From the NCBI RefSeq assembly GCF_029872155.1, contig NZ_JARXLA010000008.1:374501-438500 (forward strand): a stretch of 64,000 nt of DNA, given 5' to 3'. This stretch comes from Hyphomicrobium sp. D-2 (lineage in GTDB: Bacteria > Pseudomonadota > Alphaproteobacteria > Rhizobiales > Hyphomicrobiaceae). Positions 14,317-36,421 of this stretch are shown here, one piece after another (position 1 is the stretch's first letter; each line of letters begins with the position of its first letter). Below the pieces are notes generated by a model that saw only the letters and a list, made by a program, of their open reading frames with translations, made no database searches and was not told the origin of the DNA. Made by a program: the position numbers and the translations under genes.

Positions 14317-14505
14317 GCTCGGCGGCCGGCTCCCGGAACGGGAGTCGCCGAGCGCCATAAAAAGCTGACGTGGTTTCCGACCTGCGTCGGGATGACGGTG
14401 TGGGAGGCGAGCGGCGCAGCGCATCAATCAGCGCTGGCGGCCGGCTGTGCGGAGCACAGTCGCCAGCGCTACCTAAAACTCCCCGCAGGGGAGTCGCCGA
14501 GCGCC
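14317..14505 (+). repeat. Mosaic hairpin repeat, copy 1
   Basis: Hairpin A (14317-14353) has the outer stem GCTCGGCG/CGCCGAGC, a GCCGG versus T asymmetric bulge, and the inner stem CTCCCG/CGGGAG. A 76-bp spacer carries CCGACCTGCGTCGG. Hairpin B (14430-14470) has the outer stem AGCGCTGGCG/CGCCAGCGCT, the same bulge, and the inner stem CTGTGC/GCACAG. A third partial A-type hairpin (14479-14505) has the inner stem CTCCCC/GGGGAG. Related copies occur at 27.1, 29.6 and 34.9 kb. Confidence 0.9.
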
Positions 14506-14633
14506 AGAAGATAACCCTTTCCCCCTGCCCCGCATTAACCTCATGCAGCAGATCGGAACCGTCGTTCAGAAATTATTTGCCATATGGGGGCGATGCTGAC
14601 CGCTGAGTGTTTTTGGGTGGGGCGTTGCGTTCG

Positions 14634-15339
14634 ATGCGGGTTTTTCGTTTTGGGTTGATGGCGCTCATGGCGCTAACGGGCGCGGCTGCCGTCGGTGTGG
14701 CCCGCGCAGGCCGAAGGCTTCTTCTCCAAGCTGCTCGGCTGGGGGCAGCGTCAGGTCGAGCGCAACATCAATCCACCCACCTATAACTACGGCTACAGCG
14801 GCCAGGGCGATGGCTACGATCGCAGCTACGACCACTACAGCTACGGCGGCGGCAACTGGCCCACGGACAACGGGCGTTATCGCACCCTGTGCGTCCGCAC
14901 CTGCGACGGCTTCTATTTCCCCATCGGTGATGGCGTCGGCCGCGAGCGGCTGCATCAGGATGCGCGCGCGTGCGAATCCCGCTGCACCAGCGAAGCGCGT
15001 CTCTACTATTACCCCGTGCCGGGCGGCAGTCCCGAAACGATGGTTGACCTCGCCGGTCGTCCCTACGTGCAGGAGCGCAACGCGTTTCTCTATCGCAAGC
15101 AGCTCGTCTCCGGCTGCACGTGTAAAGCTGCACCCTGGTCGGCTGAATCGGCAGCGCGCCACCGCGCCTACAAGGACGACGACCGCATGATGGCGGATAT
15201 GCGCCGCAGCGAGCAGCGTTATGCCGGACCGCCCGCGGGCGGTGGCAGTGGCGGTGAAATCGAAGCCTATCTCATGCGGCAGGGGCCTGACCCGCATTCG
15301 CAGCAGTCGCCGTGGGATGGTGGCGTCAGCCGTTACTGA
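14634..15339 (+). pseudogene. DUF2865 secreted protein, frame broken at the signal peptide
   Basis: The ATG at 14634 begins a convincing signal peptide (MRVFRFGLMALMALTGAAAV), but the DUF2865 body is in the next frame, from about 14695 on: FFSKLLGWGQRQVERN, then Cys-rich RTLCVRTCDGFYFPI and ACESRCTSEARLYYYPVPGG and a terminal SGCTCKAAP segment. Removing one G at 14694-14695 would join the two as AAAVVWPAQA followed by EGFFSKLL, a good signal peptidase site. The downstream frame has an in-frame stop just upstream (14674), so it has no export signal of its own. It is either a recent frameshift or a sequencing error. The function of DUF2865 is unknown; the cysteines suggest disulfides in the periplasm. 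Confidence 0.75.
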
Positions 15340-15500
15340 GCGGCCGTCCTCCATTCAGGGAGGCCGCGCGGGCAGGCGCGTCGACACAGCCCATCACTTC
15401 TGAAGTTGCCGCAGGCAAAGCCAAGGCGGCAAAGGCCACGCGCTCCACAAGTCTTCATTTCAAGACTTAGCACTGCGCTACATCACTATGAATCATATGA

Positions 15501-15516
15501 TGTTTCACGTGTAACA
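15501..15516. promoter_or_regulatory. parS: parS centromere site (15/16)
   Basis: TGTTTCACGTGTAACA matches the parS consensus TGTTTCACGTGAAACA at 15 of 16 positions. It is non-coding and about 7.5 kb from parA, within the usual parS cluster distance. Confidence 0.82.
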
Positions 15517-15623
15517 GTTTCTTCAGTTCTGCTGCCGTCGCACCGGCCTCTTACCCGACCGCCCTGCCGAACCATTGCGCCACAGCTGTCCCTTCCCAAA
15601 CCACCCCGCTGCAATCCCAAAAC

Positions 15624-15653
15624 AAAAAGCCCCCGCCGTTGGGCAGGGGCTTT
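15624..15653 (-). terminator. Terminator downstream of the fatty acid hydroxylase gene
   Basis: On the minus strand AAAGCCCCTGCC pairs with GGCGGGGGCTTT (one mismatch) and is followed by TTT and further T-rich sequence. It lies about 60 bp past the reconstructed hydroxylase stop. Confidence 0.65.
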
Positions 15654-15713
15654 GAGTTGTAACAGCGTTATTTGTGGATCGGCCACCGACTCAGCGGACC
15701 CGCGCCCGCTGTT

Positions 15714-16689
15714 CTATTCCGCAGGGTTCACCAACCGGCGTGCTTCCTGCGCCGGTGTCTCCTGAGCCGCCTTCTTGTAGCGCTCCGGCTCACCCTGCCC
15801 CGGCTCGTAAACCAGCGGTAGCAGGAACTGCTCTATGTAGCTCTTCGGGAAGTTCGGAATCTCATCGACGACCAAGATCGCTGGCCTTGATCTCACGTGG
15901 CAGGTTTCCTCGTGGAACGTGCCCAGCATCCGGTCCCAGCACGTCCAGCAGCAGGCCGAAGTTGCAGTCGCCCTCGGTGCCCCAGTTCACCTGATGCAGG
16001 TGATGAATGCGGCCGATCGAGAAGTGCTTCTGAAGCGGGCCAAGCCGCGCGTCCACGTTCGAGTGTTGCACGATCAGCGTAATCGAAATCGCGAAGCCAA
16101 GTAGCACGGCCACCGGGATCGGCATGCCCATGATCACCAGCGGCATGCTGCCAACGATCATATCAAGCGCCTGGTGAGCAGGATGGCGCATCACGCCGTT
16201 AAAGCCGTACAGCCGCCCGACCCCGTGATGCACGGCATGCAGACGCCAGAGCACCGGAAAGCGATGGCTCAGGTAGTGCATGATCATGAACACGAAGTCG
16301 GAGATCAGGTAGGCCATCAGCAGCTGAGCCCACAGCGGCCATTGATTGGGCCAGATCTCGGCGTTGAACGGAAACAGCCAGACGATCAGCGGGATCAGCA
16401 GCACGCCGTTGATGCTCTGCATCTCATAAACAATGAGATGGATGAAGTTGGTCGGCACGTCGCCGTGGGCGTCGTGATCGTTCCACTCATCAAAGAACGG
16501 CGCGATCTTTTCTGAGGCGAAGGCAACCGCATAGGCAAGGCCAAGCAGCGGTGCGAGCCACAGATAGGCCCAGACGTTATCGCGGGCGATCACAAGTTCA
16601 GTAACAACCCAGTACGCGGCACCGATAAGGCCCAGCATCATGAAGGGCGCATAACCGTATCGGACGATAGCGCGGAGTGCTGACATCAT
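15714..16689 (-). pseudogene. Fatty acid hydroxylase/sterol desaturase superfamily membrane protein, C-terminus frameshifted
   Basis: Integral membrane di-iron oxygenase family. Four hydrophobic segments fill about 12-60 and 95-140, and the histidine clusters HYLSH (138-142), HAVHH (151-155) and RIHHLHQ (about 231-237) are intact, so the core reads well from 16689 down to about 15930. Beyond that the familiar ending alternates between frames: MLGTFHEE in one, REIKASDLG in another, then VDEIPNFPKSYIEQ to the stop at 15714. Three one-base shifts (+1, -1, +1) between 15880 and 15935 would restore one protein of about 320 residues. As written, the uninterrupted frame stops at 15862. The substrate is unknown. 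Confidence 0.75.
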
Positions 16690-16804
16690 TGTCTCCGGTC
16701 AACAGGCGAGGCAGAGCCTCTGGCATAACGGAGGTAACGGACACTGAACTAGCCGGGCCTCCATCGGTCACCGCCAATCAGGCGGCCTCCGGGCGGATTG
16801 TTCT

Positions 16805-18832
16805 TTACAGACTTCGCTGCTGTTTCAGCATCTTTGCAACTTCCATGGGCTCGGTCAGCGCAGGTGAACACTGCGGGCCAAGGCACACATAAGCCGTTGC
16901 TCTTGAGTTATTGGCACTCTTGTCGCGAAGGCCGGGCAAATCCGAGCCGTCTGCGTCGCCACAAAAAGCGTACTGCATTGCGCCGGGCAAAGAAATACTT
17001 CTGATGACCTCCATCAGTTCCACGCCACCTTGGAGATGCTGGCCCGCGACAACGACTTGCTGCGGGCTTATCAAATCGAATGTGCTCGCCAGTAGCCCTG
17101 TGTGTGCAACCACACTGCGCCCGATATCTCCTGCATATGTGGCCAGCAACGCCTCGGCGCGCGCGAAGTAGCGCTGTTCACCGCTTATGGTTGCCAAAGC
17201 AATAAGATTGGCCAGCATGATTGCATTGGCATTCGGTGTCGCATCATCGGTGCCGGGCTTCAGCCGAAGGATCACATCGCGCGTATCGTCGGCTGAGGTT
17301 GCATAGCCGCCCTGCTCGCTGAGCCAGTAATGGCGGTCCAGCACATCTGCCCACGCAGCGGCCTGATCGAAGTAGCGCCGCTCGCCGGTCACCTCAAACA
17401 GCCGCATCGCGCCCCAGATCATGTTGGCGTAGTCGGATGCGGTTGCCGGCGCTTTGGCGATGCCGGCGCGCCACGAGTGTTGCAACCGGCCATCGCGTTG
17501 CATGTGCGTCACGATGAAATCGAACGCCTTCTTGGCCATATCCAGCCAGAGTGGTTGATCGAACACGAACGACGCGCGGGCCAGCGCCGCGATCATCAGG
17601 CCGTTCCAATCGGCCAGAACCTTGTCATCCCAGCCGGGGCGCACGCGTCCATTGCGCACCGCCATCAGCTTCGCGCGCAGATCCGCCAGCCGCTGCTCGT
17701 CGGCGTCGCTGCGCAGCGCCATGCTGCCGAGCCGGTTGAGGATGTTGTGGCCTTCGAAATTTCCGTCGGCCGTCACGTCGTAGATTTCGGCAAAGAAGCG
17801 TCCGTCCTCATCGCCCAGCACATTCAGCACTTCATCCAGCGACCAGACGTAGAACTTGCCTTCCTCGCCTTCTGAATCCGCATCGAGCGATGCCGCCAAC
17901 CCGCCGCCCCCCGCGATCATCTCGCGCTCAAGCCACGCCACCGTTTCCGCCACGCGGGCGCGATACAGCGGCGATCCCGTCTCCCGATAGACTTCCGTCA
18001 TCAGGTCGATCAGCAGCGCGTTGTCGTACAGCATCTTCTCGAAGTGCGGCACCAGCCAGCGCTCATCGACGGAATAGCGCGCGAAGCCGCCGCCGAGGTG
18101 ATCGTAGATGCCGCCCTGACAGATGTTGTCGAGCGTCAGCACTACGGCGTTGCGCGCAGGCGCGTGGTCATAGCGAATGCCGCCGCGCCACAGCAGCCAG
18201 AAGATGCTCCACTGCGGAAACTTGGGCGCGCCCTGCAGACCGCCGCGCACCGAATCGACGGCGGGTACCAGGCGCTGGGTCAGATCCTTCAGCAGCCGAT
18301 CGTCGATCGCGGGAGCAGCGCTGGCCGGCTTCGGCTGACCCACGGCGGCGGTCAGCGCGCGCGCGTTCTCGGCCACCTTCTCCGGCTCGTTGCGGAATAC
18401 GTTTGCCACCTGACGCAGCACATCTACGAACGCCGGTCGGCCAAACCGCGCTGTGTTGGGGAAATACGTGCCGCCCCACACCGGCCGCGCACCGCTGTCG
18501 AGAAACATCGTTAGCGGCCAGCCGCCCTGCTCTCCCAGGGCGTGCAGCGCGCCCATATAGATGGCGTCGATGTCCGGGCGCTCTTCGCGGTCCACCTTGA
18601 TGTTGACGAACAGCTCGTTCATCACCGCGGCCGTCGCTTCATCCTCGAAGCTCTCGTGCGCCATCACATGGCACCAGTGGCAGGCGGCATAGCCCACCGA
18701 CAGCAGGATCGGCTTGCCGGTGCGGCGGGATTCCTCCAGCGCTTCCGGTCCCCACGCCCACCAGTGGACGGGGTTGTCCTTGTGCTGCAGGAGATAGGGG
18801 CTTGTTTCTTTGTTCAGGCGGTTTTCGCTCAT
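16805..18832 (-). CDS. Thioredoxin-domain (DUF255/YyaL, spermatogenesis-associated 20-like) protein
   Basis: A 675-residue protein of the YyaL family. The N-terminal thioredoxin-like domain has NRLNKETSPYLLQHKDNPVHW and the CHWCH motif (51-55) followed by VMAHESFED. The rest is an (alpha/alpha)6-barrel resembling glycosidase or epimerase folds, including FPQWSIFWLLWRGG, GIYDHLGGGFARYSVDERWLVPHFEKMLYDNA and RVRPGWDDKVLADWNGL. The family is widespread but its biochemical role is not established. The ATG at 18832 matches homologue starts better than the one at 18853. The GC-rich 115 bp to the hydroxylase gene holds nothing recognised. Confidence 0.9.
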   Translation of the reverse strand: MSENRLNKETSPYLLQHKDNPVHWWAWGPEALEESRRTGKPILLSVGYAACHWCHVMAHESFEDEATAAVMNELFVNIKVDREERPDIDAIYMGALHALGEQGGWPLTMFLDSGARPVWGGTYFPNTARFGRPAFVDVLRQVANVFRNEPEKVAENARALTAAVGQPKPASAAPAIDDRLLKDLTQRLVPAVDSVRGGLQGAPKFPQWSIFWLLWRGGIRYDHAPARNAVVLTLDNICQGGIYDHLGGGFARYSVDERWLVPHFEKMLYDNALLIDLMTEVYRETGSPLYRARVAETVAWLEREMIAGGGGLAASLDADSEGEEGKFYVWSLDEVLNVLGDEDGRFFAEIYDVTADGNFEGHNILNRLGSMALRSDADEQRLADLRAKLMAVRNGRVRPGWDDKVLADWNGLMIAALARASFVFDQPLWLDMAKKAFDFIVTHMQRDGRLQHSWRAGIAKAPATASDYANMIWGAMRLFEVTGERRYFDQAAAWADVLDRHYWLSEQGGYATSADDTRDVILRLKPGTDDATPNANAIMLANLIALATISGEQRYFARAEALLATYAGDIGRSVVAHTGLLASTFDLISPQQVVVAGQHLQGGVELMEVIRSISLPGAMQYAFCGDADGSDLPGLRDKSANNSRATAYVCLGPQCSPALTEPMEVAKMLKQQRSL

Positions 18833-18949
18833 GCGGCCCTCCTTAACCTTCAAGGGGTAGATGGGCGCTTAATCCGCCGATGCCATTCGATTCTAAGCCG
18901 GGATGGCCGCAACTGCACATCACGATGCCGCCAGCACCACGGGTTTTTC

Positions 18950-20302
18950 ATGCCTAAGGCCGACACCATCTTCGCACTCTCCAGCGCGCCCGGAAGGGCA
19001 GGCGTGGCGGTGGTGCGCATCAGTGGTCCTGCCGCTGGTGAGGTTGTCGATCGGATGGCACCACCGCGTGGTGACACCCGTCGCGCAGTACTGCGCCGCA
19101 TCCGTCACCATCAGAGCGGCGATGTCCTGGATGATGCGCTCGTGCTCTGGCTCCAGGGCCCCCGCACCGAGACCGGCGAAGACATGGCGGAGCTGCATTT
19201 GCACGGCAGCCCGGCCATCGTAAGCGCAGTTTTAGAGGCGCTGGGCCGCTTTCCCGGCTGCCGTATGGCCGAGGCAGGCGAGTTCACGATCCGCGCCTTC
19301 CGCAACGGCAAGATAGATCTGGCGCAGGTGGAGGGTCTGGCCGATCTAATCGCCGCCGACACCGAAGCACAGCGCAAACAGGCGCTGGCACAGGCGCAGG
19401 GTGCGCTTTCGAAGCTCTACGAGGGCTGGCGCGGCTTACTCATCGAGGCCAGCGCACTGGCCGAAGCCGCTATCGATTTCTCCGACGAAGCCGATGTCGC
19501 CGACGACGCCTTCGCCCGCGCCCGCACCATTGTTGCCGAAGTTCTGCCGGACATTCAGGCCCATCTGGATGACGGCCATCGCGGCGAAATTTTGCGCGAT
19601 GGCTTTCGCGTCGTGCTGGCGGGCGCGCCGAATGCGGGCAAATCCAGCCTTCTGAACGCCCTCGCGCGCCGCGACGCCGCCATCGTATCCGACGAAGCAG
19701 GCACCACCCGCGACGCCATCGAGGTGCGTCTGGACCTCGGCGGCCTGCCCGTCATCGTCACCGACACCGCCGGCATCCGAGAGGCTTCCGGCGCTATCGA
19801 GCGCGAAGGCATTCGCCGGTCGCTCGAGCATGTCCGGGAGGCCGATCTCGTCCTCTGGCTTGCCGATGCTCGCGAGCCGCTGCCCGCAATGCCTGCTGAA
19901 GTCGCCCACCGCGACCCGGCGCAAAGCCTCACCGTCGCGACCAAGATCGATCTACTGCCCGCCGCTTCTGCCGACGCGCCGCCTTTGCCTTTCGCCGCCG
20001 ATCTCGCGATTTCGGTCCGCACCGGCAATGGCCTCAACGCCCTCATCGAGCGCATTGCTGCCGTCGCCGGGCAGCGTATAGGCGACCAGACCACCCCGGC
20101 CCTCACCCGCGAGCGCCACCGCGAAAGCCTGAACCACTGCGCTCAGGCCCTCGCCAGCTTCCTCGCGGGCGACGCCGACCAGCACGAATTGCGCGCCGAA
20201 GACTTGCGAATGGCCGTTCAGGCGCTGGGCCGCATTACCGGCCGCGTCGACGTCGAAGACATTCTCGGCCAGATTTTTTCGCGATTCTGCATTGGCAAGT
20301 AG
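18950..20302 (+). CDS. mnmE: tRNA modification GTPase MnmE
   Basis: K+-stimulated GTPase that, with MnmG, installs the carboxymethylaminomethyl or aminomethyl group at wobble U34 of tRNAs. Counting from the ATG at 18950 (450 residues): the N-terminal folate-binding domain begins DTIFALSSAPGRAGVAVVRISG; the G1 loop GAPNAGKSS is at 225-233; GTTRDAIE is at 251-258; the G3 motif DTAGIRE is at 272-278; and the protein ends in the catalytic CIGK. The frame is open far upstream, but that stretch is antisense to the DUF255 gene. It starts the mnmE-mnmG-rsmG-parAB order typical of alphaproteobacteria. Confidence 0.96.
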   Translation: MPKADTIFALSSAPGRAGVAVVRISGPAAGEVVDRMAPPRGDTRRAVLRRIRHHQSGDVLDDALVLWLQGPRTETGEDMAELHLHGSPAIVSAVLEALGRFPGCRMAEAGEFTIRAFRNGKIDLAQVEGLADLIAADTEAQRKQALAQAQGALSKLYEGWRGLLIEASALAEAAIDFSDEADVADDAFARARTIVAEVLPDIQAHLDDGHRGEILRDGFRVVLAGAPNAGKSSLLNALARRDAAIVSDEAGTTRDAIEVRLDLGGLPVIVTDTAGIREASGAIEREGIRRSLEHVREADLVLWLADAREPLPAMPAEVAHRDPAQSLTVATKIDLLPAASADAPPLPFAADLAISVRTGNGLNALIERIAAVAGQRIGDQTTPALTRERHRESLNHCAQALASFLAGDADQHELRAEDLRMAVQALGRITGRVDVEDILGQIFSRFCIGK

Positions 20303-20308
20303 TTGCGT

Positions 20309-20324
20309 TGTTTCACGTGAAACG
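20309..20324. promoter_or_regulatory. parS: parS centromere site (15/16)
   Basis: TGTTTCACGTGAAACG has one mismatch to the 16-bp consensus, at the last base. It is located 7 bp after the mnmE stop in the mnmE-mnmG intergenic gap. Confidence 0.92.
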
Positions 20325-26355: not shown

Positions 26356-26883
26356 TCAATGCTGATGCGGCGGTTGCGGTTCTCGCAGCGTCGATGCCGC
26401 GATGTTCGAAGCCCAGGAGGCGCTGAAAGCGGGCTGGGTATTTTGAACCGCCTGTTGTTGCGGACGAAGTGGGCTCAACACTGTCCGCAGCTCTATCGCC
26501 ATTTGAAATGCTCTGGGTCCGGTCACCTGGCCAGATGCACGGCCAAAGGTGTGGTGCGTTGCTGACAGCGGCGGCCGCAGCAACCCCGGAGCAGCTCGGG
26601 TGGCGATAGTCTCATCGGGCAGCGTGCTCAACGCCGCCTGAAGCTTGTTGCGCAGGATTTCAAACCGGCGCGCGCGACGATGCAGGGCTGCACGGGAAAT
26701 CGTGCGCCGGCATGCATCGAGGAATGTTCTGTTGTCAGGGATGATCCGGTGCAGAGGGATCGGCTGGGACGCTGCCTGCCCGTCGCGGGCGTTGCGCTGG
26801 CCCCTGTTCCACGTGTCCGCTGCTGGCAAGCTGCCCGCCGTGCGCGTGAAACACTTCTGCATTGTCAGCTTGCAATCGGTCAT
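26356..26883 (-). CDS. Hypothetical protein
   Basis: I do not recognise this 175-residue product. It is polar and Ala/Arg/Gln/Pro-rich, has no signal peptide or membrane segment, and ends in a His-containing tail (PQPPHQH). A helical stretch around 65-95 (ISRAALHRRARRFEILRNKLQ) looks protein-like. Support for a real gene comes from the uninterrupted frame and from a T-tailed hairpin just downstream on the same strand. An internal ATG at codon 8 is an alternative start. The competing plus-strand frames are short. A non-coding or small-RNA transcript ending at the same hairpin is also possible. Confidence 0.4.
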   Translation of the reverse strand: MTDCKLTMQKCFTRTAGSLPAADTWNRGQRNARDGQAASQPIPLHRIIPDNRTFLDACRRTISRAALHRRARRFEILRNKLQAALSTLPDETIATRAAPGLLRPPLSATHHTFGRASGQVTGPRAFQMAIELRTVLSPLRPQQQAVQNTQPAFSASWASNIAASTLREPQPPHQH

Positions 26884-27054
26884 ATCGATTTTGATCGACC
26901 CATATCGCCCGGAACAGATCTCTTTTGCGATAATGCTGGAAAGTCAGAGGATTGCCAGAGCCAATGAAACCAGTCTGGAAAGATTGAGGCGCAATCGGCT
27001 GCAATTGTGGCGCAAATGCCAACACGCATTGTATGTCGCGCCGTCCTTTTAGGT

Positions 27055-27210
27055 AGCGCTGGCGACCGTGCTCCGCCCAGCCGGCCGCCAGCGCTGATTG
27101 GTGCGTGCTGCCCCGCTCGCCTCCCGCACCGTCATCCCGACGCAGGTCGGGATCCACGCCACTTCTTATAGCGCTCGGCGACTCCCGTTCCGGGAGCCGG
27201 CCGCCGAGCG
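27055..27210 (-). repeat. Mosaic hairpin repeat, copy 2 (inverted)
   Basis: Hairpin B (27055-27095, outer stem AGCGCTGGCG/CGCCAGCGCT) and hairpin A (27171-27210, outer stem CGCTCGGCG/CGCCGAGCG, inner stem CTCCCG/CGGGAG) are separated by a 75-bp spacer holding GTCATCCCGACGCAGGTCGG. The order and strand are reversed relative to copy 1, and the GGCCG-versus-A bulge is preserved in both hairpins. Confidence 0.9.
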
Positions 27211-27249
27211 AAAACGAAAGCGGCGCCCATCGTTATGATGGACGCCGCT
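27211..27249 (-). terminator. Terminator of the adenosine kinase-like gene
   Basis: On the minus strand AGCGGCG-CCATC pairs with GATGG-CGCCGCT across one mismatch, followed by TTTCGTTTTCG. It lies about 75 bp past the kinase stop and abuts mosaic repeat copy 2. Confidence 0.65.
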
Positions 27250-27325
27250 GATTGTCATGTTGGTCGGGTGGGATCGCCCCTTGCGGGCATCGGGCCAATG
27301 CGGGCCCCCCTGCTCTCAGTCATCC

Positions 27326-28327
27326 TCAGTCGGCGATCAGCCCTTCCTGCTTGGCGATCACGGAAAGCGCGCGCTCCGGCCGGGCGCCGATATGGCTGAT
27401 CACTTCCGATGCCGCGAGGCTGCCCAGACGTCCGCAGTCCGATAGCTTCAGCCCGCGCGTGTAGCCATAGAGGAAGCCCGCCGCGTAGAGGTCGCCGGCG
27501 CCGGTGGCATCCACCACCTTCTCAACCTTCATCGGCCGCACTTCCACGGTGTCAGAGCCGGTCACGATCAGCGAACCCGCTTCCGAGCGCGTCAGCACCG
27601 CGATCTCGCATTCGCCGCGTACCGCAGCCACTGCTTCATCGAAGCTGTTCACTTCGTAAAGCGCGGTGATCTCGGTCTCGTTGGCGAACAGGATATCGAT
27701 GCCGTCCTTCACCAGACGGCGGAAGTCGGCGCGATGGCGATCGACGCAGAAGGCGTCCGACAGCGACAGCGCGGTCTTGCGGCCTGCCTTCGCGGCAATT
27801 TCCGCAGCCTTGTAAAAAGCTTCCTTCGCCTCGGGCTTATCGAACAGATAGCCTTCAAGGTAGGTCACCTTCGAAGCCTCGATCAGCGCTGGATCGACTT
27901 CGGCGGCGCTTAGCTCAGTGCTGGCGCCCAGGAAGGTGTTCATCGTGCGCTCGCCATCCGGTGTCACCAGGATGAGGCACACGGCCGTGGGCAGACCGCT
28001 GACCGCAGGCCCGGTCTCGAAGGCAACGCCAGCGGAGCGGACATCATGCCAGAACACCTTGCCGAACTGATCATCTGCAACTCGGCCGATGAACGCCGCG
28101 CGACCGCCAAACGAGGCCAGGCCCGCAACCGTGTTTGCCGCCGAGCCACCGGAGCGTTCAATCGACGGTCCCATCAGCGCATAGAGTCGATCGGCTTCAT
28201 GGGCATCGATGAGCCGCATGAAACCCTTGGTCAGATCCTGCTTTGACAGAAAATCGTCGTCACAGCGTCCGATGATGTCGACAATAGCATTGCCGATGCC
28301 GACAACGTCGTAGCGTGTCTCTTGCAT
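27326..28327 (-). CDS. PfkB-family adenosine kinase-like sugar/nucleoside kinase
   Basis: A 333-residue ribokinase-fold enzyme. The N-terminal strand is YDVVGIGNAIVDIIG (about 5-19), SGGSAANTVAGLASFGG holds the substrate-lid region, and the catalytic anion-hole motif DATGAGDLYAAGFLYG lies at about 283-298. The closest family by pattern is the alphaproteobacterial adenosine kinase group, which phosphorylates adenosine to AMP, but other nucleosides or sugars cannot be excluded. The ATG at 28327 gives the family-typical start; the frame is open to 28396. It is downstream of holA on the same strand, after an 84-bp gap. Confidence 0.88.
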   Translation of the reverse strand: MQETRYDVVGIGNAIVDIIGRCDDDFLSKQDLTKGFMRLIDAHEADRLYALMGPSIERSGGSAANTVAGLASFGGRAAFIGRVADDQFGKVFWHDVRSAGVAFETGPAVSGLPTAVCLILVTPDGERTMNTFLGASTELSAAEVDPALIEASKVTYLEGYLFDKPEAKEAFYKAAEIAAKAGRKTALSLSDAFCVDRHRADFRRLVKDGIDILFANETEITALYEVNSFDEAVAAVRGECEIAVLTRSEAGSLIVTGSDTVEVRPMKVEKVVDATGAGDLYAAGFLYGYTRGLKLSDCGRLGSLAASEVISHIGARPERALSVIAKQEGLIAD

Positions 28328-28411
28328 GCGTCCCCCAAGTGTCTGGATCGGGCGCACTATAGGGCCGTGGCCGCGTCCGACAAGCCGTAGCGGCAACTTG
28401 ACCGAAAAAGT

Positions 28412-29464
28412 TTAGTGACGATGGGCAGTTAAGGGTCGCGTCGGCGCTCCGGGACGCGCCGTGGCGGCGAGAAACAGCAGCAGTTCCTCTGCTATCGCCT
28501 CTTCCAGCGACGAGGAAAGCCGCGCCGACCTGGCCGTCTTGGCGGTGCGCGCGAGTGCTGCGGTCAGCCGTTCGGAGTTCCACAACCGGCATTGCAGTCC
28601 AAGCGCGCCCTTCTGCTTGAAATGCACCGGCGGACGCTGCTGGCGAATGGCGTCGTCGAAGCTGGCGCCGGCATCAATCTGCGTGCGAATGCGATGTAGC
28701 CGCTGCAGATGGCGTTGCACGGCCAGAATGATCATCTGCGCGCTTTCGCCCGCCGCCATCGCCCGCGAAAACTCCGCCATGGCGGTTGCGGCGTCGCCGG
28801 AAACAGCGGCGTTCAGCGTGCGGTCGATCGCCATTTCCGAGGCATCGCCCACCACCGCTTCGATATCGGCGGCCTCGATTTCCCCCCGGCCCGCAGCATA
28901 AAGCGCCAGCTTCTCTATTTCGCCACGGGAAAGTGCGCGGTCCGCACCCATGCGGGCCAGCAGCATTTCGCGCGCGTCCGAGGTGATGGCAAGGCCGTGC
29001 GCCTTCAGCGTTTCGCGGATCAGGCCCTCCAGATCCGCCGCTTCGTCGCCATAGCAGGCAACAGCAGCCGCATGGGGCGATTTCTCGAACAGCGCACGCA
29101 TCGCGTCGGTGGGCTTCAGGTTGCCTGCTTCCACGATGAGATTGGCAGCCAGTGCGCCTTCGGCCAGCAACGGCTGCAGGCTTGCCGCGTTGATGCGCCG
29201 GCCCGCAGTGGCCCGCACAACCTTGGAGCCGCCAAACATCGGAATGGTTTGCAGCTCAACAATCAGACGGTCGGGATCGTTGTCGAGATCGGCGTCGTCC
29301 AGCCGGATGATTTCGCCCTGATCGCGCTTAGCAAATAGCTTTGCAAGCTGTGCCGCGCGCTCGGAAACAAGCCCGGCGTCCGTGCCATAGAACAGCACGG
29401 CCGGAACTTTAGGCCCTGGCGGATTGAGGAAGGACTGAGCTTGATGGGCCTTGATGGCGACCAT
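28412..29464 (-). CDS. holA: DNA polymerase III delta subunit
   Basis: Clamp-loader subunit that opens the beta clamp. About 350 residues. The start AVLFYGTDAGLVSERAAQLAKLF, the middle NLIVEAGNLKPTDAMRALFEKS and the helical C-terminal segment AQMIILAVQRHLQRLHRIR fit HolA; the AAA+ domain is degenerate, as expected for delta. Starts at 29470 (GTG) or 29464 (ATG) are both possible. In Rhizobiales leuS-lptE-holA form one unit. Here lptE and holA are 359 bp apart because mosaic repeat copy 3 sits between them. Confidence 0.9.
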   Translation of the reverse strand: MVAIKAHQAQSFLNPPGPKVPAVLFYGTDAGLVSERAAQLAKLFAKRDQGEIIRLDDADLDNDPDRLIVELQTIPMFGGSKVVRATAGRRINAASLQPLLAEGALAANLIVEAGNLKPTDAMRALFEKSPHAAAVACYGDEAADLEGLIRETLKAHGLAITSDAREMLLARMGADRALSRGEIEKLALYAAGRGEIEAADIEAVVGDASEMAIDRTLNAAVSGDAATAMAEFSRAMAAGESAQMIILAVQRHLQRLHRIRTQIDAGASFDDAIRQQRPPVHFKQKGALGLQCRLWNSERLTAALARTAKTARSARLSSSLEEAIAEELLLFLAATARPGAPTRPLTAHRH

Positions 29465-29823
29465 GGGCACCGCACTAACGATTTGCGTCCGACGAAGTAC
29501 GTCAGAACTTCAAAGGCCTTCTAGCGCATTTCAGTGTTTGATTGAACGCATCGTCAGCTGCCGAGCCATCTTGTCGGCGACGGATTCTTACGCGCTCGGC
29601 GGCCGGCTCTCCGCAGGAGAGTCGCCGAGCGCCAACTAAAGCCGGCGTGGTTCCCGATCTACGTCGGGATGACGGCGCAGGAGGTACCGCGGTGCACCAC
29701 GCACCAATCAGCGCTGGCGGCCGGCTGTGCGGAGCGCAGTCGCCAGCGTAACAAATAATCACGGCCGGCTCTCCGCAGGAGAGTCGCCGAGCGCCACTAC
29801 AACCAGCGCCACTAAAACTTCAA
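29465..29823. other. 359-bp gap between holA and lptE occupied by a mosaic repeat
   Basis: Apart from about 110 bp next to holA with no recognised signal, the gap consists of mosaic hairpin repeat copy 3. It separates two genes that are normally adjacent in a leuS-lptE-holA operon. Confidence 0.8.
29592..29795 (+). repeat. Mosaic hairpin repeat, copy 3
   Basis: Hairpin A (29592-29632) has the outer stem GCGCTCGGCG/CGCCGAGCGC and the inner stem CTCTCC/GGAGAG. A 77-bp spacer carries CCCGATCTACGTCGGGATGACG. Hairpin B (29710-29748) has the inner stem CTGTGC/GCGCAG. A partial third A-type hairpin lies at 29764-29795. The order is the same as in copy 1. Confidence 0.9.
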
Positions 29824-30363
29824 TCAGGCGTTGCCGGACAGGAAGGCCGCGACGCGGCCCTTAAGCTCGTCACCGACGGTCTTGGCGGCGCGATTTTCAG
29901 CATCGACGCGTGCGCGGGTGTTGGCGAATACGCTCTCGAAGCGCTGGAATGCAGCACGGCCGAAGCTCTGTCCCTGCAGTGCCACCGAATTGTCGGCGAG
30001 ACGGACAAGGCGGAACGTCGTGTTGAGATTGTAGACGCTGCCTGAGGAGTTGCCGTCCACCTGCACCAGCGTGGGCGTGATCGATTCCTGGATCACGACT
30101 TCAAGCCGATAAACCGGCTGGGCCTGATGACCACCGCCGGTCGACTGATAGATCAGCTCGTTGCGCAGGCGCTGACCAACGCGCCCCGGAATGGGCGCGA
30201 TCTCAAGTTCAGCAAGTCTCTCGTTGACTTCCGGGCCGCCGGTGATGGCGCTGGAAGCGTACATCGGACGGAATCCGGTATCGCCGCAGGCTGTCAGCAG
30301 CATGGATGCCGCAGCACACGCCAACGCAACCCGGATCATCCCTCGGTGGCTAGCGGCCCACAT
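29824..30363 (-). CDS. lptE: LPS-assembly lipoprotein LptE
   Basis: Outer-membrane lipoprotein that plugs the LptD translocon. The 179-residue protein has a lipoprotein signal peptide with lipobox MLLTAC (Cys26), then GFRPMY, the typical LptE start of the mature region, and a beta-rich body with QRLRNELIYQ, YRLEVVIQES and FRLVRLADNSVALQGQSFG. The ATG at 30363 is preceded by AGGGG at good spacing; a second ATG at 30339 is also possible. It follows leuS by 43 bp on the same strand, the conserved arrangement. Confidence 0.9.
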   Translation of the reverse strand: MWAASHRGMIRVALACAAASMLLTACGDTGFRPMYASSAITGGPEVNERLAELEIAPIPGRVGQRLRNELIYQSTGGGHQAQPVYRLEVVIQESITPTLVQVDGNSSGSVYNLNTTFRLVRLADNSVALQGQSFGRAAFQRFESVFANTRARVDAENRAAKTVGDELKGRVAAFLSGNA

Positions 30364-30406
30364 CGCCCGCCCCTCGCGCTACGGCGTCAGTCGACAAAAT
30401 TAGGCA

Positions 30407-33031
30407 TCAGCCGACGACATTTACAATTTTCTGCGGCACAACGATGACCTTCTTGACCGGACGGCCTTCGAGCGCGCGCTGCACCGTCTCCAACTGGAGA
30501 GCCGCAGCCTCGATCTCAGCCTTGTCGGCCGTTCTGGCAATCGCAAGTTCGTCCCGCCGCTTGCCATTCACCTGTACGGCAATGACGATCGTATCGTCAA
30601 CGAGCAACGCCGGGTCGGCCTCGGGCCACGCCTTATTGGCCAGCAGTGTGTTGTATCCAAGTCGCGCCCAGCTTTCTTCCGCCAGATGCGGCATCATCGG
30701 GCCGATCATCTGCACCATAAATTCCAGTGCCTCGCGCTGCGCCCAGGCCATGTCGGCGCCGGTCTTTGTCAGCGCAGAGCCGAGAACGTTCGCGAATTCA
30801 TAGATTTGAGCGACGGCCACGTTGAAGCGCAGGCCTTCGATGGAGCTGGCAACCTGCGTCAGCGCCTTGTGGCTCGCCCGGCGCAGCGCCACTGCGTCAG
30901 CACCCATTTCAGACGGTTGCGGCGCACCCTTTTCCGCAACCTTCTCGGCACCCTGATCGACCAGGCGCCAGATGCGCTGCACGAACCGGCGTGCGCCATC
31001 GACGCCCACATCGGTGTAGGTGACATCGCGTTCCGGTGGGCTGTCCGATAGCACGAACCAGCGCGCAACGTCGGCGCCATAACGGGTGACGAACTCGTCG
31101 AGGTCGATGGTGTTCTTACGCGACTTCGACATCTTCTCGATCGGGCCGATCGTAACCGGCTCGCCGGTCGCGATCTCGACCGCCTTGCGGGCGGAACCCT
31201 CGCCATCGATCCGCACCTGGCCGGGCTGCAGCCAGCCGCCGTGGCGAGACTTGTAGGTCTCGTGCGTGACCATGCCCTGCGTGAACAGCGCGGCGAACGG
31301 CTCGCGGGTGTTGTCCGCCAGCTTCAGATGGCCGGTGTCGCACAGCGCGCGGGTGAAGAAGCGCGAATACAGCAGATGCAGGATCGCATGCTCGATACCG
31401 CCGATGTACTGATCAACCGACATCCAGTAGGCCGCCGCGTCCTTGTCGACCGGCGTTTTCGCGTGCGGAGCGGTGAAGCGCACGAAATACCACGATGAAT
31501 CGACAAACGTGTCCATCGTGTCGGTTTCGCGCCGCGCCTTGCCACCGCACGAGGGGCAGGTCGTGTGCTTCCAGGTCGGGTGGCGGTCCAGTGGATTGCC
31601 CGGCTTGTCGAAGGTTGCATCCTTCGGCAGCTCCACCGGCAGATCCTTGTCCGGCACCGGAACGATGCCGCAGGTCTCGCAATGGACGACCGGGATCGGA
31701 CAGCCCCAATAGCGCTGACGCGAAACACCCCAGTCGCGCAGACGGTAGTTCACCTTGCGCGTGCCCGTGGCCTTGCCTGCCAGCTTGGCCTGCTCCAGCC
31801 GCTTGGCAACTTCGGCAAACGCCTCTTCGGTCGTCATGCCGTCGAGGAACGATGAATTGATCATCGTGCCGTCTTCGTCATAGGCCTTGTCGGTGATCTC
31901 GAACCTCGCCGCGTCCTTGCCCGGCGGCAGGATCACCGGCTTGAACGGCAGACCATATTTGCGAGCAAAATCAAGGTCGCGCTGGTCGCCGGAGGGGCAA
32001 CCGAAGATCGCGCCGGTGCCATAGTCCATCAGCACGAAGTTGGCGACGTAGACCGGCAGCGTCCAGCTGTCATCCAGCGGATGCACCGCGCGGATGCCGG
32101 TGTCGAAGCCCTGCTTCTCAGCCGTTTCGAGATCCGCGACGGAGGTGCCCATGCGGCGGCATTCCTCGCAGAACGCCTCAAGCTTCGGATTGTTAGCCGC
32201 TGCTGCCTTGGCCAGCGGATGGTCCGCCGATACCGCCAGGAACGAAGCGCCGAACAGCGTGTCGGGGCGCGTGGTGTAAACCTCAACCTCGCCGTGGTTC
32301 TCAGGCGCCGTCGCCCCATCCAGCGCAAACCGCACCAGCATGCCTTCCGAACGGCCGATCCAGTTCGCCTGCATCAGGCGCACCTTCTCCGGCCATTTGT
32401 CGAGCGCGTTCAGCGCATCGAGCAGTTCGTCGGCGTAGGCGGTGATCTTGAAGAACCACTGCGTTAGCTCGCGCTGCTCCACCAGCGCGCCGGAGCGCCA
32501 GCCGCGGCCATCGATCACCTGCTCGTTGGCCAGCACGGTGTGATCCACCGGATCCCAGTTGACCTTCGAGGACTTGCGATACGCCAGCCCCTTCTTGAGC
32601 ATGTCCAGGAACAGCTTCTGCTGATGCTGGTAGTAATCCGGCGAGCAGGTCGCGATCTCGCGTGACCAGTCCAGCGAAAAGCCCATCGACTTCAGCTGCC
32701 GGCGCATGGTGGCGATGTTCTCGTAGGTCCACTCAGCCGGATGCACCTTGCGTTCCATGGCGGCGTTTTCGGCCGGCATGCCGAATGCGTCCCAGCCCAT
32801 GGGGTGCAGCACATTGAAGCCCTTCGCGCGCTTGTAGCGTGCGAACACGTCGCCCATGGTGTACTTGCGCGAGTGGCCAACATGGATGCGCCCCGAAGGA
32901 TACGGGAACATCTCAAGCACGTAGCACTTGGGCAGGCCTTCCTTTTCGGAGGCGCGGAAGATGCCTTCCTTGTCCCAGGCTTCCTGCCAGTGTTTCTCAC
33001 GCGCGGGCGCGTCGTAGCTCTGATTGGCCAT
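30407..33031 (-). CDS. leuS: Leucyl-tRNA synthetase
   Basis: Class I synthetase charging tRNA-Leu. The 874-residue length is typical. The HIGH-type motif HVGH is at 50-53 inside [14 protein letters not shown]. The editing domain includes the CP1 region [14 protein letters not shown], the zinc-ribbon-like CETCGIVP and [11 protein letters not shown] are present, [10 protein letters not shown] and the KMSKS loop [15 protein letters not shown] follow, and the C-terminal anticodon-binding domain ends [15 protein letters not shown]. It is divergent from yggS with 79 bp between. Confidence 0.98.
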
Positions 33032-33110
33032 ACGGCATCAAACTTTCAGGATTTAGCAGCTTTGAGCGGCGTAATGAGCCTTAAAGCATCATTGGGGTCA
33101 AGGCGGTCGG

Positions 33111-33800
33111 ATGACACCTGAGGCTGAAATACAAAAAGGACCGGTCGCAAGACTGGCGGAAATCGAGGCGGAAATCGCCGCCGCGGCTGAGGAAGCGGGC
33201 CGAAAGCCTGCGGATGTGCAGCTTATAGCGGTGTCGAAAACGTTCGACGGTCCGGAAATCAAACCGGTTCTGGAGGCCGGTCAGCGCCGCTTCGGCGAAA
33301 ACCGGGTGCAGGAGGCGGCTGGCAAATGGCCCGCGCTGCGGCAGCAGTTCCCCGATGTGGAGCTGCATCTCATCGGTCCGCTGCAATCTAATAAAACCCG
33401 TGAGGCGGTCGAGCTGTTCGATGCGATCCATTCCATCGATCGGCCCAAGATCGCGCGCGCCATCGCCGAGGAAATGACGAAGCAGGGCCGCAAGTTGAAG
33501 CTGTTTGTGCAGGTGAATACGGGCGAGGAAGCCCAGAAGGCCGGCGTTCCCGCCTCGCGAGCTGCCCGCACTGCTGGCGCTGTGCCGGGACGAGCTGGAG
33601 CTCACCATCGACGGCCTGATGTGCATTCCTCCCGTAGATGAGGAACCGGCCATCCACTTTGCTTTCCTCGCCAAGCTTGCGGTCGAGAATGGCGTCGCGG
33701 AGCTCTCCATGGGCATGAGCGACGACTTCGCTACTGCGGTCGCGTTCGGAGCCACCCAATGTGCGTGTCGGCAGCGCCATTTTCGGCGGGCGCAGCTGAA
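33111..33800 (+). pseudogene. yggS: PLP homeostasis protein YggS, with three single-base insertions
   Basis: The YggS/PLPBP family binds pyridoxal phosphate and buffers PLP. The first part contains VQLIAVSKTFDG (PLP-lysine segment), FGENRVQEA, ELHLIGPLQSNK and FVQVNTGEEAQKAG. It then drifts out of frame near 33550. The next frame gives RELPALLALCRDELELTIDG, LMCIPPVDEE and SMGMSDDFATAVAFGAT, a further shift at about 33758 gives HVRVGSAIF, and a TTTTT run at 33780-33784 hides the last shift before GGRS and the stop at 33798. Three +1 insertions sum to +3, so the natural stop is in the original frame. That pattern suggests sequence errors in an intact 229-residue gene. Confidence 0.85.
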
Positions 33801-33957
33801 GCTCGCGGCACGGCCGAATCGGGCGGCGCGCCATCCGCAGCGTGCCGCCATCACGACTTCCAGAGTTTTCCATAGCGATTTCAGCGCACGCGCCGCGGTC
33901 ATGCATATCCAATGCTAGGCTGCTGCAACCTGATTCGCATGAAGCCGGAGGCCGATG

Positions 33958-34869
33958 ATGACCGCAGCCGCAGCCCGCGCAGAGGCTCGCGCCAATACCG
34001 CCGCCGCCAACGCCGCAGCGGCGGATGCAGCGGCTGACGCCCGCGCGGAAGTCGTGACGAAAGTGCCCGGCGTCTCTGAGGCAACAGCCGCTAGGGCGAC
34101 GCGCAACGGTTACTATCATTTCATGGTCGATGTCTGGATCACCGAACTTCAATGCGATCGAGTTCGGCGTCTACAAGCACACGCGCAATCGCGCCAAGTC
34201 GCGCCAGTTCACCACTGACATGGGGACATCTTCGCCGAGGTGACCAGAAGGCGGTGGAGCGCACCGGCCTGATCGGCTATCGCGAAGAAACCTGGAAGAA
34301 AGCTCAGACCAAAGACAAGCGTCTCGTGTTCGAAGATGTTCACCGATACGCTGAACTGGCGCGCAACGATGGATCTGATGCTCGGGCGATCGATGCAGCA
34401 GACGATCGCGGCGCGTGGAACGCCGGTGATGGTCTATGCCATCAACACCGATCGCGACGATTTCGTTGTTTATCTGGAGCGGTCAGCTAACAAGTGGCCG
34501 TTCATGCCCGAGCACTTCGGCTTCTTTATTCCGGGGCCTGATGGTCAGCCGGTGTTCTATCGCTTGAAGCGTCACTTCATCAACCTGGGCGGCGATTACA
34601 CGCTTTACGACGAGCACGACAACAAGGTCGGCATGGTCGACGGCAAGGTGTTTTCAATCGGCGGCAAATGGAAGTGCAAGGTGCGCATCGAGCATGCCGA
34701 TCGCCGTCTTTTGACAGTGCTGCAGATGTTCGCTGCGATGCAGGTTTTCAATGGCGAAAGCCGCCGTTACCTGCGCCGTCTGTGGCGCATGGTGCGCCGT
34801 GGCAAGACCGCCATCGTGCTCGATCCGCAGGAGCTGGATCTCTACAAGAACCCTCGCCGCCTGCGTTAG
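33958..34869 (+). pseudogene. Unknown protein with net-zero frameshifts (possible LURP-one/tubby-like fold)
   Basis: A start at 33958 follows GGAGG. The reading moves between frames but stays protein-like: an Ala-rich helix (about 1-35), then GYYHFMVDVWIT, NFNAIEFGVYKHTRNRAKSR, GDIFAEVT, KAVERTGLIGYREETWKKAQ and, from 34336 to 34869, an intact 178-residue part with TPVMVYAINTDRDDFVVYL, YTLYDEHDNKVGMVDGKVFS and WKCKVRIEHADRRLL. The shifts (+1 near 34144, -1 near 34223, -1 near 34246, +1 near 34338) sum to zero. The DEHDNKVGMVDGKVFS pattern resembles tubby-like/LURP-one domains, but I am not sure; the function is unknown. Confidence 0.6.
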
Positions 34870-36421
34870 CGCCTTTTTGTTGCGCTCGGCGACTGCCCTC
34901 CGGACAGCCGGCCGCCGAGCGCGCAACGTCATCCCGACGCAGGTCGGAATCCACACCAGCTTCCGCATGCGCTAGCCGCATTGATTTCACGCATATATCG
35001 TGGCGCGATGTGATGCGTGCATCAGGCGCGCGCCGCTTTTGCTTTGATACGCGGCGTGGTTTGGCCGTTGTCGCTTTCTTCTTCGGAGCGGCCTTTTTCT
35101 TCGCTTTGGTTGCCGGCGCGGGCTTCGATCTGGCCGTTGTAGCTTCCGGCTCCGCCCCAGTCGCATCCGCCAGCCCGTGCAACAGCGCGCGGGCCCGCCC
35201 CTCGATCGCCTCTGAAACCTGCGTCATCAGCGGATGCGCACCCGCTGGCATTGCTTCGACTTCGGCCGCTGCATTGCGCGTTTCGGCCAGCGCGCCCTTC
35301 GCCAGTGCTTCAACGCGCGCCAGCAGGCGCGGCGCGTTCAGACCAACATCGGCTGCAAACCGCTGCCAGTGACGGCGCTTCAAATGTTCGCCGCGATTTT
35401 TGCCGGCGATCTTCTGGGCCATGTTACGCGTTACGTGATCCCACGCCAGCGCGCACGTGACGTCGTAAATCGGCGCCAGTTTGAAACCGCGGCCGGAGAT
35501 CATCATCGAATAGTTCTTGGCGTGCGCGTCGGTGTTGCACGACAGCACGTTGAAAATCACGTAGTCGAGCAGGTTGATGATATCCGGCGCTTGCATCGCA
35601 TTACGAGTCGTTGCGAACATTTCAGCCAGCGTCGGGCCGGGGATGCCGGTCTGGTTCGATTCATATTTTGCTGACGGCGGTTTGCCGAGCGCCTGGCAAA
35701 AATCCTCTTGATGCAGCCGCCGCCAGTGGCCCTGCTGCTCCACGCGGTCATAGCGCTTCACCAGCAGATAGGTGCGCCGCCCCGCTGCTCCGGTGGTTAT
35801 CTCCGGTGCGTTGAGGCCAAGACGCTTCGCCAGCGCAAGGCACAGCGCTTCGTTCTGAACGCCGCCGTAGAGCCGCTCTGCGTCCGGCTTCATGATCCAG
35901 GTTGAAGGCGCGCCGTTGATCGGTATGCAGATGCGGCCTTCGGCATCGATGGCAACGCCGATCTTGGTCTGCACGCCGGCGAGCGACATGGAGACGCCGT
36001 CTTCACCCACGAGGAATGGCTTCGATGGCAGCTCGTCGAGGATTTTCTCAAGCTCGCGTTCGCTTCCAATCGGCTTCCAACCGTGTGTGCTGCGCGTGCC
36101 GGGTTGTCCGATGGAAAGTGCGCCTGCGGTGTCGCGTCCAAGCTCGGCCAGAATCCCGATCACGTCTTCAGGTGCAGCGCCGAGTTGCAGACCGATCGCG
36201 CGCAGTTGCGATGATTCAGGCAACAGATTGGCAGCCCACGGCAGAAAGCGCCGTGGCGGCACGGGACGCGGCGTCGACGGCATCAGCAGCGACACCGGAA
36301 AGGCGCCGCGCGTGGTCAGCCATTCCGGCGCGTAACTGAAGCTCGGCCCGTCCGCATGCACCGAGATGGTGCCGACGACGCGGCTCTCATAGTAGACGTT
36401 GAGTTCATGCACGCTTGCCAT
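34748..36421 (-). CDS. hipA: HipA-like serine/threonine kinase toxin, with abnormal extended C-terminus
   Basis: Toxin of a type II HipBA pair; HipA kinases phosphorylate a translation target (glutamyl-tRNA synthetase in E. coli). From the ATG at 36421 (557 residues): the N-terminal HipA_N domain has FPVSLLMPSTPRPVPPRRFLPWAANLLPE, the Gly-rich loop SLAGVQTKIG is at 146-155, the ATP-site STWIMKPD follows, the catalytic NTDAHAKN is at 296-303 and the metal-binding YDV at about 319-321. The kinase domain ends near 420. A Lys/Ala-rich tail follows, and from about 490 the frame runs through mosaic repeat copy 4 and antisense to the neighbouring gene. It starts 2 bp after hipB. Confidence 0.9.
   Translation of the reverse strand: MASVHELNVYYESRVVGTISVHADGPSFSYAPEWLTTRGAFPVSLLMPSTPRPVPPRRFLPWAANLLPESSQLRAIGLQLGAAPEDVIGILAELGRDTAGALSIGQPGTRSTHGWKPIGSERELEKILDELPSKPFLVGEDGVSMSLAGVQTKIGVAIDAEGRICIPINGAPSTWIMKPDAERLYGGVQNEALCLALAKRLGLNAPEITTGAAGRRTYLLVKRYDRVEQQGHWRRLHQEDFCQALGKPPSAKYESNQTGIPGPTLAEMFATTRNAMQAPDIINLLDYVIFNVLSCNTDAHAKNYSMMISGRGFKLAPIYDVTCALAWDHVTRNMAQKIAGKNRGEHLKRRHWQRFAADVGLNAPRLLARVEALAKGALAETRNAAAEVEAMPAGAHPLMTQVSEAIEGRARALLHGLADATGAEPEATTARSKPAPATKAKKKAAPKKKATTAKPRRVSKQKRRAPDARITSRHDICVKSMRLAHAEAGVDSDLRRDDVARSAAGCPEGSRRAQQKGANAGGEGSCRDPAPADRARWRSCHGAPCATDGAGNGGFRH
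34882..34960 (-). repeat. Mosaic hairpin repeat, copy 4 (partial: hairpin A plus spacer)
   Basis: Hairpin A (34882-34922) has the outer stem GCGCTCGGCG/CGCCGAGCGC, the A versus GGCCG bulge, and on the opposite strand the inner stem CTGTCC/GGGCAG with one G-U pair. It is followed by CGTCATCCCGACGCAGGTCGG. Hairpin B is missing. The element lies inside the 3' end of the long hipA reading frame. Confidence 0.88.

Follow-up and report, generated by a model that had tools for sequence, protein, structure and literature searches.

A family of bulged palindromic repeats resembling REP and RPE elements in Hyphomicrobium and related genomes

Introduction

The GTAG-type REPs and BIMEs, which occur with RAYT in E. 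coli, Pseudomonas and Stenotrophomonas, are short, high-copy hairpins that lie in clusters and at convergent and tandem gene ends, and those of the E. coli type carry a bulge in the stem. RIME of rhizobia are intergenic mosaics with two palindromes. As described in excerpts of PMC8266576, TnpA-REP of E. coli recognises a single-stranded REP with a bulge and a GTAG tag. REPs of the CGTC-1 type are reported, in excerpts of PMC3733652, not to be associated with transposase genes, and that source allows that repeats with bulges may have been missed; two of the Rickettsia palindromic elements (RPE), RPE-4 and RPE-6, correspond to CGTC REPs in the same excerpts. Here we describe a hairpin family in a 64-kb stretch of the genome of Hyphomicrobium sp. 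D-2 (G000:C8:374501-438500, hereafter the window), where an initial annotation had recognised four sites with mosaic hairpin elements.

The hairpins share several properties with these systems. Like GTAG REPs, they are short, numerous, clustered and bulged; high copy number together with an extragenic position at gene 3' ends was found in three genomes and not in mixed sets of loci. Unlike GTAG REPs, they have no GTAG column, and no association with RAYT was found. They also form intergenic mosaics with two palindromes as RIME do, a likeness drawn from the description. As with RPE and other intragenic REPs, they occur both between genes and inside coding sequences, including excision repair genes (excerpts of PMC3733652; here UvrA and UvrB), but they are set apart from RPE by description, that is, by sequence, bulge, A-rich tail, absence of a CGTC tag, host lineage and insertions in the terminase and portal genes of gene transfer agents (GTAs). 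Although the hairpins are not members of the GTAG family, we regard the comparison of how they may work as fair, because TnpA-REP recognises a single-stranded, bulged REP. Accordingly, we describe them as a new, untagged and bulged REP/RPE-like family for which no linked RAYT was found. We consider that they are probably a lineage-restricted family of palindromic repeats of about 50 bp, recognised and spread in the form of a folded single strand. With them, the known REP/RPE elements gain an untagged, bulged family from a further bacterial lineage, one for which a RAYT link was not found.

Hairpin copies in the window

The window contains seven full hairpins and two truncated ones, accompanied by a distinct short repeat, D, in four copies.

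14315..14365, + strand: hairpin A1 with 3' A-rich tail (covariance model (CM) 67.1 bits; sequence)
14377..14397, - strand: D repeat (CGTC-1-type REP) in the spacer, exact match to CGTCATCCCGACGCAGGTCGG
14430..14480, + strand: hairpin B1 with tail (CM 65.6 bits)
14479..14504, + strand: truncated hairpin A' without the 5' outer arm, missed by the initial annotation (sequence; one single hairpin at this site in G039)
27045..27095, - strand: hairpin B2 with tail (CM 57.3 bits)
27130..27150, + strand: D repeat, exact match
27161..27211, - strand: hairpin A2 with tail; its inner stem differs as a block from the orthologue in H. sulfonivorans (CM 63.1 bits; alignment)
29592..29642, + strand: hairpin A3 with tail (CM 67.8 bits)
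29654..29674, - strand: D repeat with two mismatches (sequence match)
29710..29760, + strand: hairpin B3 with tail (CM 56.8 bits)
29762..29794, + strand: truncated hairpin A' (CM 32.4 bits over 29762-29786), full-length in G039
34872..34922, - strand: hairpin A4 with tail, between the stop of a + strand open reading frame (ORF) and the 3' part of a HipA-like ORF (CM 68.1 bits; Pfam HipA_C)
34927..34947, + strand: D repeat, exact match

The CM, which was built from 67 copies including the seven from the window, gave ten matches in the window up to E 1. The seven full hairpins were at E <= 1.7e-15. The truncated hairpin at 29762-29786 followed with 8.7e-8, A2 read on its opposite strand with 5.5e-4, and a single weak match with 0.67. 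Both sequence and CM thus bear out the hairpins and coordinates of the initial annotation. The layout that it had proposed for all four sites, hairpin A, D and hairpin B, is common to those at 14.3, 27.1 and 29.6 kb, with spacers of 74, 75 and 77 bp where 75-77 bp had been given, and two of these three sites bear an extra truncated A hairpin (about 14479-14504 and about 29762-29794). At 34.9 kb the layout is absent, and a single A-type hairpin adjoins D. The B hairpin at 27.1 kb (CTGGGC/GCACGG), which the initial annotation did not list, has one mismatch in this register, and another register folds better. With one mismatch allowed, the outer-stem word GCGCTCGGCG was not above chance (38 found, 35.5 expected), while AGCGCTGGCG was found 32 times where 18.6 were expected, a count that none of 100 shuffles reached. 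The complete structure exceeds chance clearly, as the copy numbers given below show.

Each unit of about 50 bp consists of a variable 6-bp outer stem, GGCG paired with CGCC, a 4-nt GCCG bulge and a G.U (G.T) pair, followed by an inner stem that also varies, a loop of the form GNA and a 3' tail rich in A. In five of the seven window hairpins, folding gives an outer stem of up to 10 bp, the 4-nt bulge, and an inner stem of 7 bp that is closed by a G.U pair and capped by a loop of 3 nt; the other two have a different folding minimum. The bulge had been presented as GCCGG opposite one base. It is present, and is best described as four nucleotides, GCCG, followed by a G.U or G.T pair on the GCCGG strand. 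In DNA folding of three window hairpins, the GCCGG strand gave -17.1, -19.3 and -19.1 kcal/mol and the complement -13.9, -16.3 and -16.1 kcal/mol. Because the GCCGG strand is thus more stable as DNA by about 3 kcal/mol in all three, the structure has a preferred strand.

The alignment behind the CM was picked by hand from 134 candidates (78 from the D-2 genome and 56 from the sister genus g10) with at most three core mismatches. Of its 67 rows, 66 read GCCGG at the bulge and the next base, all 67 have the G.T wobble, and 59 have GAA, GGA or GCA as the loop; in the tail, columns 42-43 and 46-49 are rich in A. This constancy of the core is partly forced, since rows were picked with at most three core mismatches, and in a larger alignment of 212 copies the conservation of the core is forced by the search pattern.

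Copy number and host range

The family is dispersed in the D-2 genome and in its bacterial family. Searching the genome and its relatives, as the initial annotation had proposed, gave 66 exact-core copies in the D-2 genome, with none in a reversed-pattern control, and loose-pattern matches in 47 of 103 family genomes, where the reversed control gave six matches in all. The CM recovered 136 matches at E <= 0.001 in the D-2 genome, with 150 of 4921 candidates scored. This genome is close to Hyphomicrobium sulfonivorans S1 (G039), to which it is 93% identical over 9 kb.

In a survey of the order, the loose pattern matched in 14 of 397 genomes, of which 12 were among the 21 family genomes drawn. 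Outside the family, two of 376 genomes matched; G140 has a real hairpin, and in G198 the inner stem is unpaired. With the CM and stricter filters, eight of 249 genomes matched, and G140 was the only one outside the family. In a scan of genome contigs with at least 98 matching stretches, the 80 listed came from Hyphomicrobium, from Hyphomicrobiaceae, or from metagenome-assembled genomes named only to Hyphomicrobiales, Rhizobiales, Alphaproteobacteria or Proteobacteria. Literature searches in open-licence text on Hyphomicrobium repeats, mosaic elements, the core sequence and GTA palindromes returned nothing resembling this hairpin family. The initial view that the hairpins belong to no named family therefore holds as far as Rfam gathering scores and these searches go, except that the conserved piece of the spacer fits the already described CGTC-1 REP (excerpts of PMC3733652). 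Its REP/BIME-like classification as a dispersed element is supported by copy number, clusters, mosaic units and, in three genomes, location at gene ends.

Genomic placement

On crude gene calls, the hairpins are present at the 3' ends of genes. The 66 copies of the D-2 genome comprised 33 in convergent and 14 in tandem spacers, 15 inside ORFs and four unresolved; the 33 copies placed in the g10 genome G045 comprised 13 convergent, seven tandem and 13 inside ORFs, and the 31 of the g10 genome G060 comprised 16, nine and six, respectively. No copy was in a divergent spacer in any of the three. When the intergenic copies of these genomes are pooled, 62 are convergent and 30 tandem, and none of the 92 is divergent. 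In samples of the D-2 genome, 18% of the total spacer length is divergent, and on that rate 0 of 92 has a probability of about 1e-8.

The hairpins are also present in frame inside proteins. Of 198 distinct copies, 46 lie within ORFs of at least 150 aa, 33 of them in frame 0, and 18 of 20 hairpin-bearing ORFs that were scanned have a Pfam family. These include class I tRNA synthetase (3), UvrA (3), UvrB, ThiC (2, orthologous), MazG (2), peptidase M3, NAD synthase, an acyl transferase, an OB-fold protein and Uma2; in two mandelate racemase-type enzymes the hairpin precedes the domains, perhaps through an error of the start site. As in RPE, open frames pass through the hairpin, here in TerL, portal, class I tRNA synthetase, UvrA, ThiC and MazG. 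Hairpins of opposite orientation occupy one intragenic site in different genomes for the synthetase (L115, L157, L192), UvrA (L113, L184, L191) and MazG (L155, L195).

The hairpins also decorate the packaging terminase of GTAs. In the GTA cluster, a hairpin is found in 11 of 15 TerL ORFs and 11 of 17 portal ORFs, some of them partial; all these loci are tied to a hairpin of their own or of a neighbour, so that the fractions are not rates. The TerL of L417 and L438 is shorter at the hairpin position. Five of 42 exact copies of G045 lie in an 18.4-kb GTA stretch where 0.19 are expected (P 1.8e-6), a stretch that was noticed through its hairpins. GTA copies are fewer elsewhere, with one of 31 in G060 (L344) and, among the loci examined in the D-2 genome, a single exact copy that directly follows the capsid gene (L024). 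In GTA terminase and portal proteins, peptides encoded by the hairpin, APGGRLPAGESPGA being an example, were seen in frame at L428, L439 (IMG/VR 2545824543_000002), L105, L139, L383 and L436.

Covariation and turnover of the stems

The initial annotation had noted that inner stems differ between copies and still pair, and had taken this covariation to imply selection for folding. The covariation is real and holds in the 67 chosen copies, where 96.9% of cells are paired and shuffles give 74.0%, and where cells with double changes number 245 against 83.6 (sd 6.1) in shuffles; neither value was reached in 500 shuffles, which ignore the relatedness of the copies. Changes on both sides were found in 12 of 17 pairs (9.9 in shuffles; 5 of 500 as high), and at most 49.3% of cells were paired when the registers were slid by one to three columns.

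Template switching has been described as a source of compensatory changes (excerpts of PMC8794818). Covariation here therefore has two possible causes, and alone it is no proof of selection for folding. Orthologous sites are informative on this point. In 19 hand-picked pairs, some of which share a hairpin (four more of the 23, with other core lengths, were dropped), 22 base pairs had changed on both sides, 21 of them paired in both, and 15 on one side, four of them paired in both. Whole inner or outer stems are replaced as blocks between 93%-identical genomes (the 27.1-kb site; L039), with pairing kept, and one hairpin is inverted in place (L010 compared with H. sulfonivorans). Because double changes outnumber single ones, stems are replaced as blocks and a hairpin is inverted in place, these sites indicate DNA template switching and exchange between copies, and template switching probably helps to keep the stems paired.

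From the same observations, the family could be regarded as selfish or neutral debris, in which template switching in DNA hairpins would alone keep the arms paired, with neither selection nor present recognition. The excess of double-sided changes (22 to 15), the block replacements and the in-place inversion would fit it, and its mechanism is that of PMC8794818. However, copying from arm to arm should not protect an unpaired bulge. In a scan by geometry only, without a sequence anchor, 32 matches with at most five core mismatches were found, and the GCCGG bulge is kept in 30 of them, the two without it being the most divergent (four and five core mismatches). The outer stems of these matches differ, and even the GGCG/CGCC pairs change together. 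The scan covered 464 kb of the D-2 genome including the window, 1.0 Mb from three g10 genomes and 80 kb from G039; neither the window nor the G039 stretch was a blind choice. A wider geometry scan, on DNA mostly fetched by the core, gave 256 matches with at most four core mismatches and one in a reversed control. Also, at 12 orthologous sites of G045 and G060 the cores are exact in both while the aligned DNA differs by about 10-19%, although this evidence is weak since the loci were fetched by that core. The near-constant unpaired bulge is a stronger sign of recognition or constraint than the covariation, and we consider the debris explanation rather unlikely. The family is good material for telling apart covariation that comes from selection on structure and covariation that comes from template switching.

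Spacer repeat D and site dynamics

Repeat D reads CGTC-ATCCCGAC-GCAG-GTCGGGAT-CCA. It fits the CGTC-1 REP (dRS3-type) as described in excerpts of PMC3733652, with a CGTC tag, an 8-bp stem ATCCCGAC/GTCGGGAT starting with AT, a 4-nt loop and a CCA tail. Hairpins A and B do not fit this description, as their flank columns differ and their tail is A-rich, against a CGTC tag, a CCA tail and a stem of 8-9 bp; D accompanies them at recurrent spacings. At the D-2 loci examined, D was matched 23 times with at most four mismatches (two of these are two readings of one site). A hairpin starts 61-82 bp before D in 11 of the 23 and 47-61 bp after it in seven, and three have no hairpin within about 200 bp.

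The hairpins grow in tandem and as mosaics with this CGTC-1-type REP. Tandem units are often spaced 47-57 bp apart and, in g14, also about 75-110 bp. The 29.6-kb composite is present in the D-2 genome and G039, and is lacking from four congeners (G033, G034, G036 and G038), where the spacer is short; the alignment left out G035 and G037. The 14.3-kb site holds only one hairpin in G039, which matches A in its 5' half and the truncated A in its 3' half. Among 100 relaxed hairpin matches at D-2 loci, 31 could be placed between flanks in G039; none was identical, three were equal in length, including one chance match within a gene, and 28 had another length, in some cases set by the ends of the flank alignment. 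At five polymorphic sites that were aligned, the differing blocks begin or end in or beside hairpins; no autonomous element to which the hairpins could belong as MITEs was identified. The 14.3-kb site had no match in 72,556 plasmid records, and the phage collection was not searched.

Mobilising partner and alternative explanations

We propose that recognition and spread act on the folded single strand, probably through an HuH/Y1-type or other single-strand DNA enzyme that acts in trans and is no longer linked to the hairpins or not recognised. Template switching and recombination between copies may then rearrange the hairpins and help to keep their arms complementary. Several results weigh against this proposal. 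The D-2 genome has no Y1 transposase (PF01797), the Pfam Y1 family being the only one searched. PF01797 is present in 14 of 102 family genomes, and only four of the 14 carry the hairpin (G049, G079, G095, G096). At 19 Y1 loci, each with up to about 1.5 kb of flank, there was no family hairpin, and two relaxed matches lacked the core. No clean empty site with a target duplication was seen at the five polymorphic sites. The preference for gene 3' ends is also not universal; on crude gene calls, divergent copies are 12 of 65 in mixed genome-contig loci and seven of 24 in a g10/g14 set.

The hairpins could instead be a classical REP family mobilised by a RAYT whose transposase is lost or unrecognised in this genome. 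The REPs of E. coli also need a bulge in an imperfect hairpin that is recognised as single-stranded DNA (excerpts of PMC8266576), and size, clusters and gene-end location fit REPs (excerpts of PMC3733652). However, no GTAG column was present at either end, in the flanks of 212 aligned copies or of the 66 D-2 copies, and a RAYT, which the initial annotation had thought worth seeking, was found neither in the D-2 genome nor at the 19 Y1 loci; no Y1 gene adjoining a hairpin was found. We regard this explanation as doubtful.

Another alternative is an RNA element, in which the hairpin acts in mRNA 3' ends as a stabiliser or processing signal and the covariation comes from a selected RNA structure. 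The strong covariation and the absence of the 92 intergenic copies from divergent spacers are in its favour, as are the copies in tandem spacers of G045 and G060, which are sense in 13 of 16 (p 0.02). In the D-2 genome, however, six tandem copies are sense and eight antisense, and in G045 and G060 the orientation follows the chromosome strand, also in 29 convergent spacers. A single intragenic site can hold copies of either orientation, a terminator-like hairpin at 27219-27249 immediately precedes A2 (in a scan with no more such sites than shuffles), and no Rfam match was found in the window at gathering scores, so that the hairpin is not identified as a known RNA. An RNA element thus appears quite improbable as an account of the family. 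An effect of the hairpins on mRNA ends is possible, and the evidence does not call for a host function.

Integron attC sites are recognised by structure while their stems vary. The hairpins follow the same principle, but identity with attC-like recombination sites is very remote, since the copies, which stand alone or in tandem groups with short spacing, showed no cassette-like arrays and the attC core words were not at the hairpin ends, although no dedicated search for core sites or an integrase was made.

Strand polarity in the sister genus g10

In several g10 genomes the exact cores lie mostly, and in three chromosomes almost entirely, on one strand, with counts of 42/0 in G045, 30/1 in G060, 15/1 in G043, 32/4 in G042 (five contigs), 20/4 in G041, 25/9 in G040 and 16/7 in G044; 23 of 24 CM matches of G043 are on the majority strand. 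The pattern is seen mostly in the more complete assemblies, and several draft genomes are mixed (for example, G049 9/8 and G051 8/7), though their contigs may lie in either orientation. G045 and G060 are not independent, as 12 of the 13 distinct shared sites listed for them (19 alignment rows) keep the relative orientation and one (TerL) differs. Against other genomes, 45 alignment rows have the same orientation and 10 are flipped.

In G045, G060 and G043 the copies are on both halves of the circle. Replichores were rejected as an explanation in G045, since any half circle contains at most 29 of its 42 copies, yet none is on the other strand. GC skew is also offset over the whole chromosome in these three genomes. 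Its gene-direction-free GC3 value was +0.038 in G060, +0.085 in G043 and -0.065 in G045 (20 samples each), and +0.047 in G044 and -0.002, without an offset, in G033, a genome of the window's genus with one exact copy (10 samples each). The hairpins are on the C-richer strand in all four g10 genomes sampled (G045:C3, G060:C1, G043:C1, G044:C1; L202-L261, L355-L364). By arm, one arm holds most of the skew in G043 and G060 and the other is near zero, and G045 and G044 are less regular. Gene direction was rejected as the cause, since coding sequence is 49-52% on the + strand in these four genomes and the offset stays. A parS pattern, used as an origin marker, had no match in 10 genomes. The D-2 genome has no comparable polarity (41/25), and no tie between orientation and local skew was seen when they were compared by eye.

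Replication in one direction has been reported for chromids (excerpts of PMC7858055). It is conceivable, though we think it unlikely, that the whole circular chromosome of g10 has one polarity and that the hairpins record a process that always meets it from the same direction. Replication that is mainly unidirectional, or transfer of a single strand, could be such a process, and a single-strand DNA enzyme would place the hairpins on one strand. Bidirectional replication does not account for the one-strand arrangement of some chromosomes, which, if it holds up, would allow the direction in which these bacteria process their chromosomes to be tested.

Other features of the window

Intrinsic terminators were considered as an identity of the hairpins and rejected. 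A scan of 26880-29830 gave three terminator-like sites, against 2.5 in shuffles, and none is a full family hairpin; one overlaps the truncated copy, at 29760-29777. The stem-loop at 27219-27249 (- strand) has a T-rich tail and follows a PfkB-type gene, with A2 directly beyond it. A tandem array of CCCCTG hexamers at 14200-14302 adjoins the first copy and is longer than in H. sulfonivorans. The HipA-like ORF at 34748-36427 (- strand) stays open through A4, and it shares an overlap with the 3' end of the ORF that faces it.

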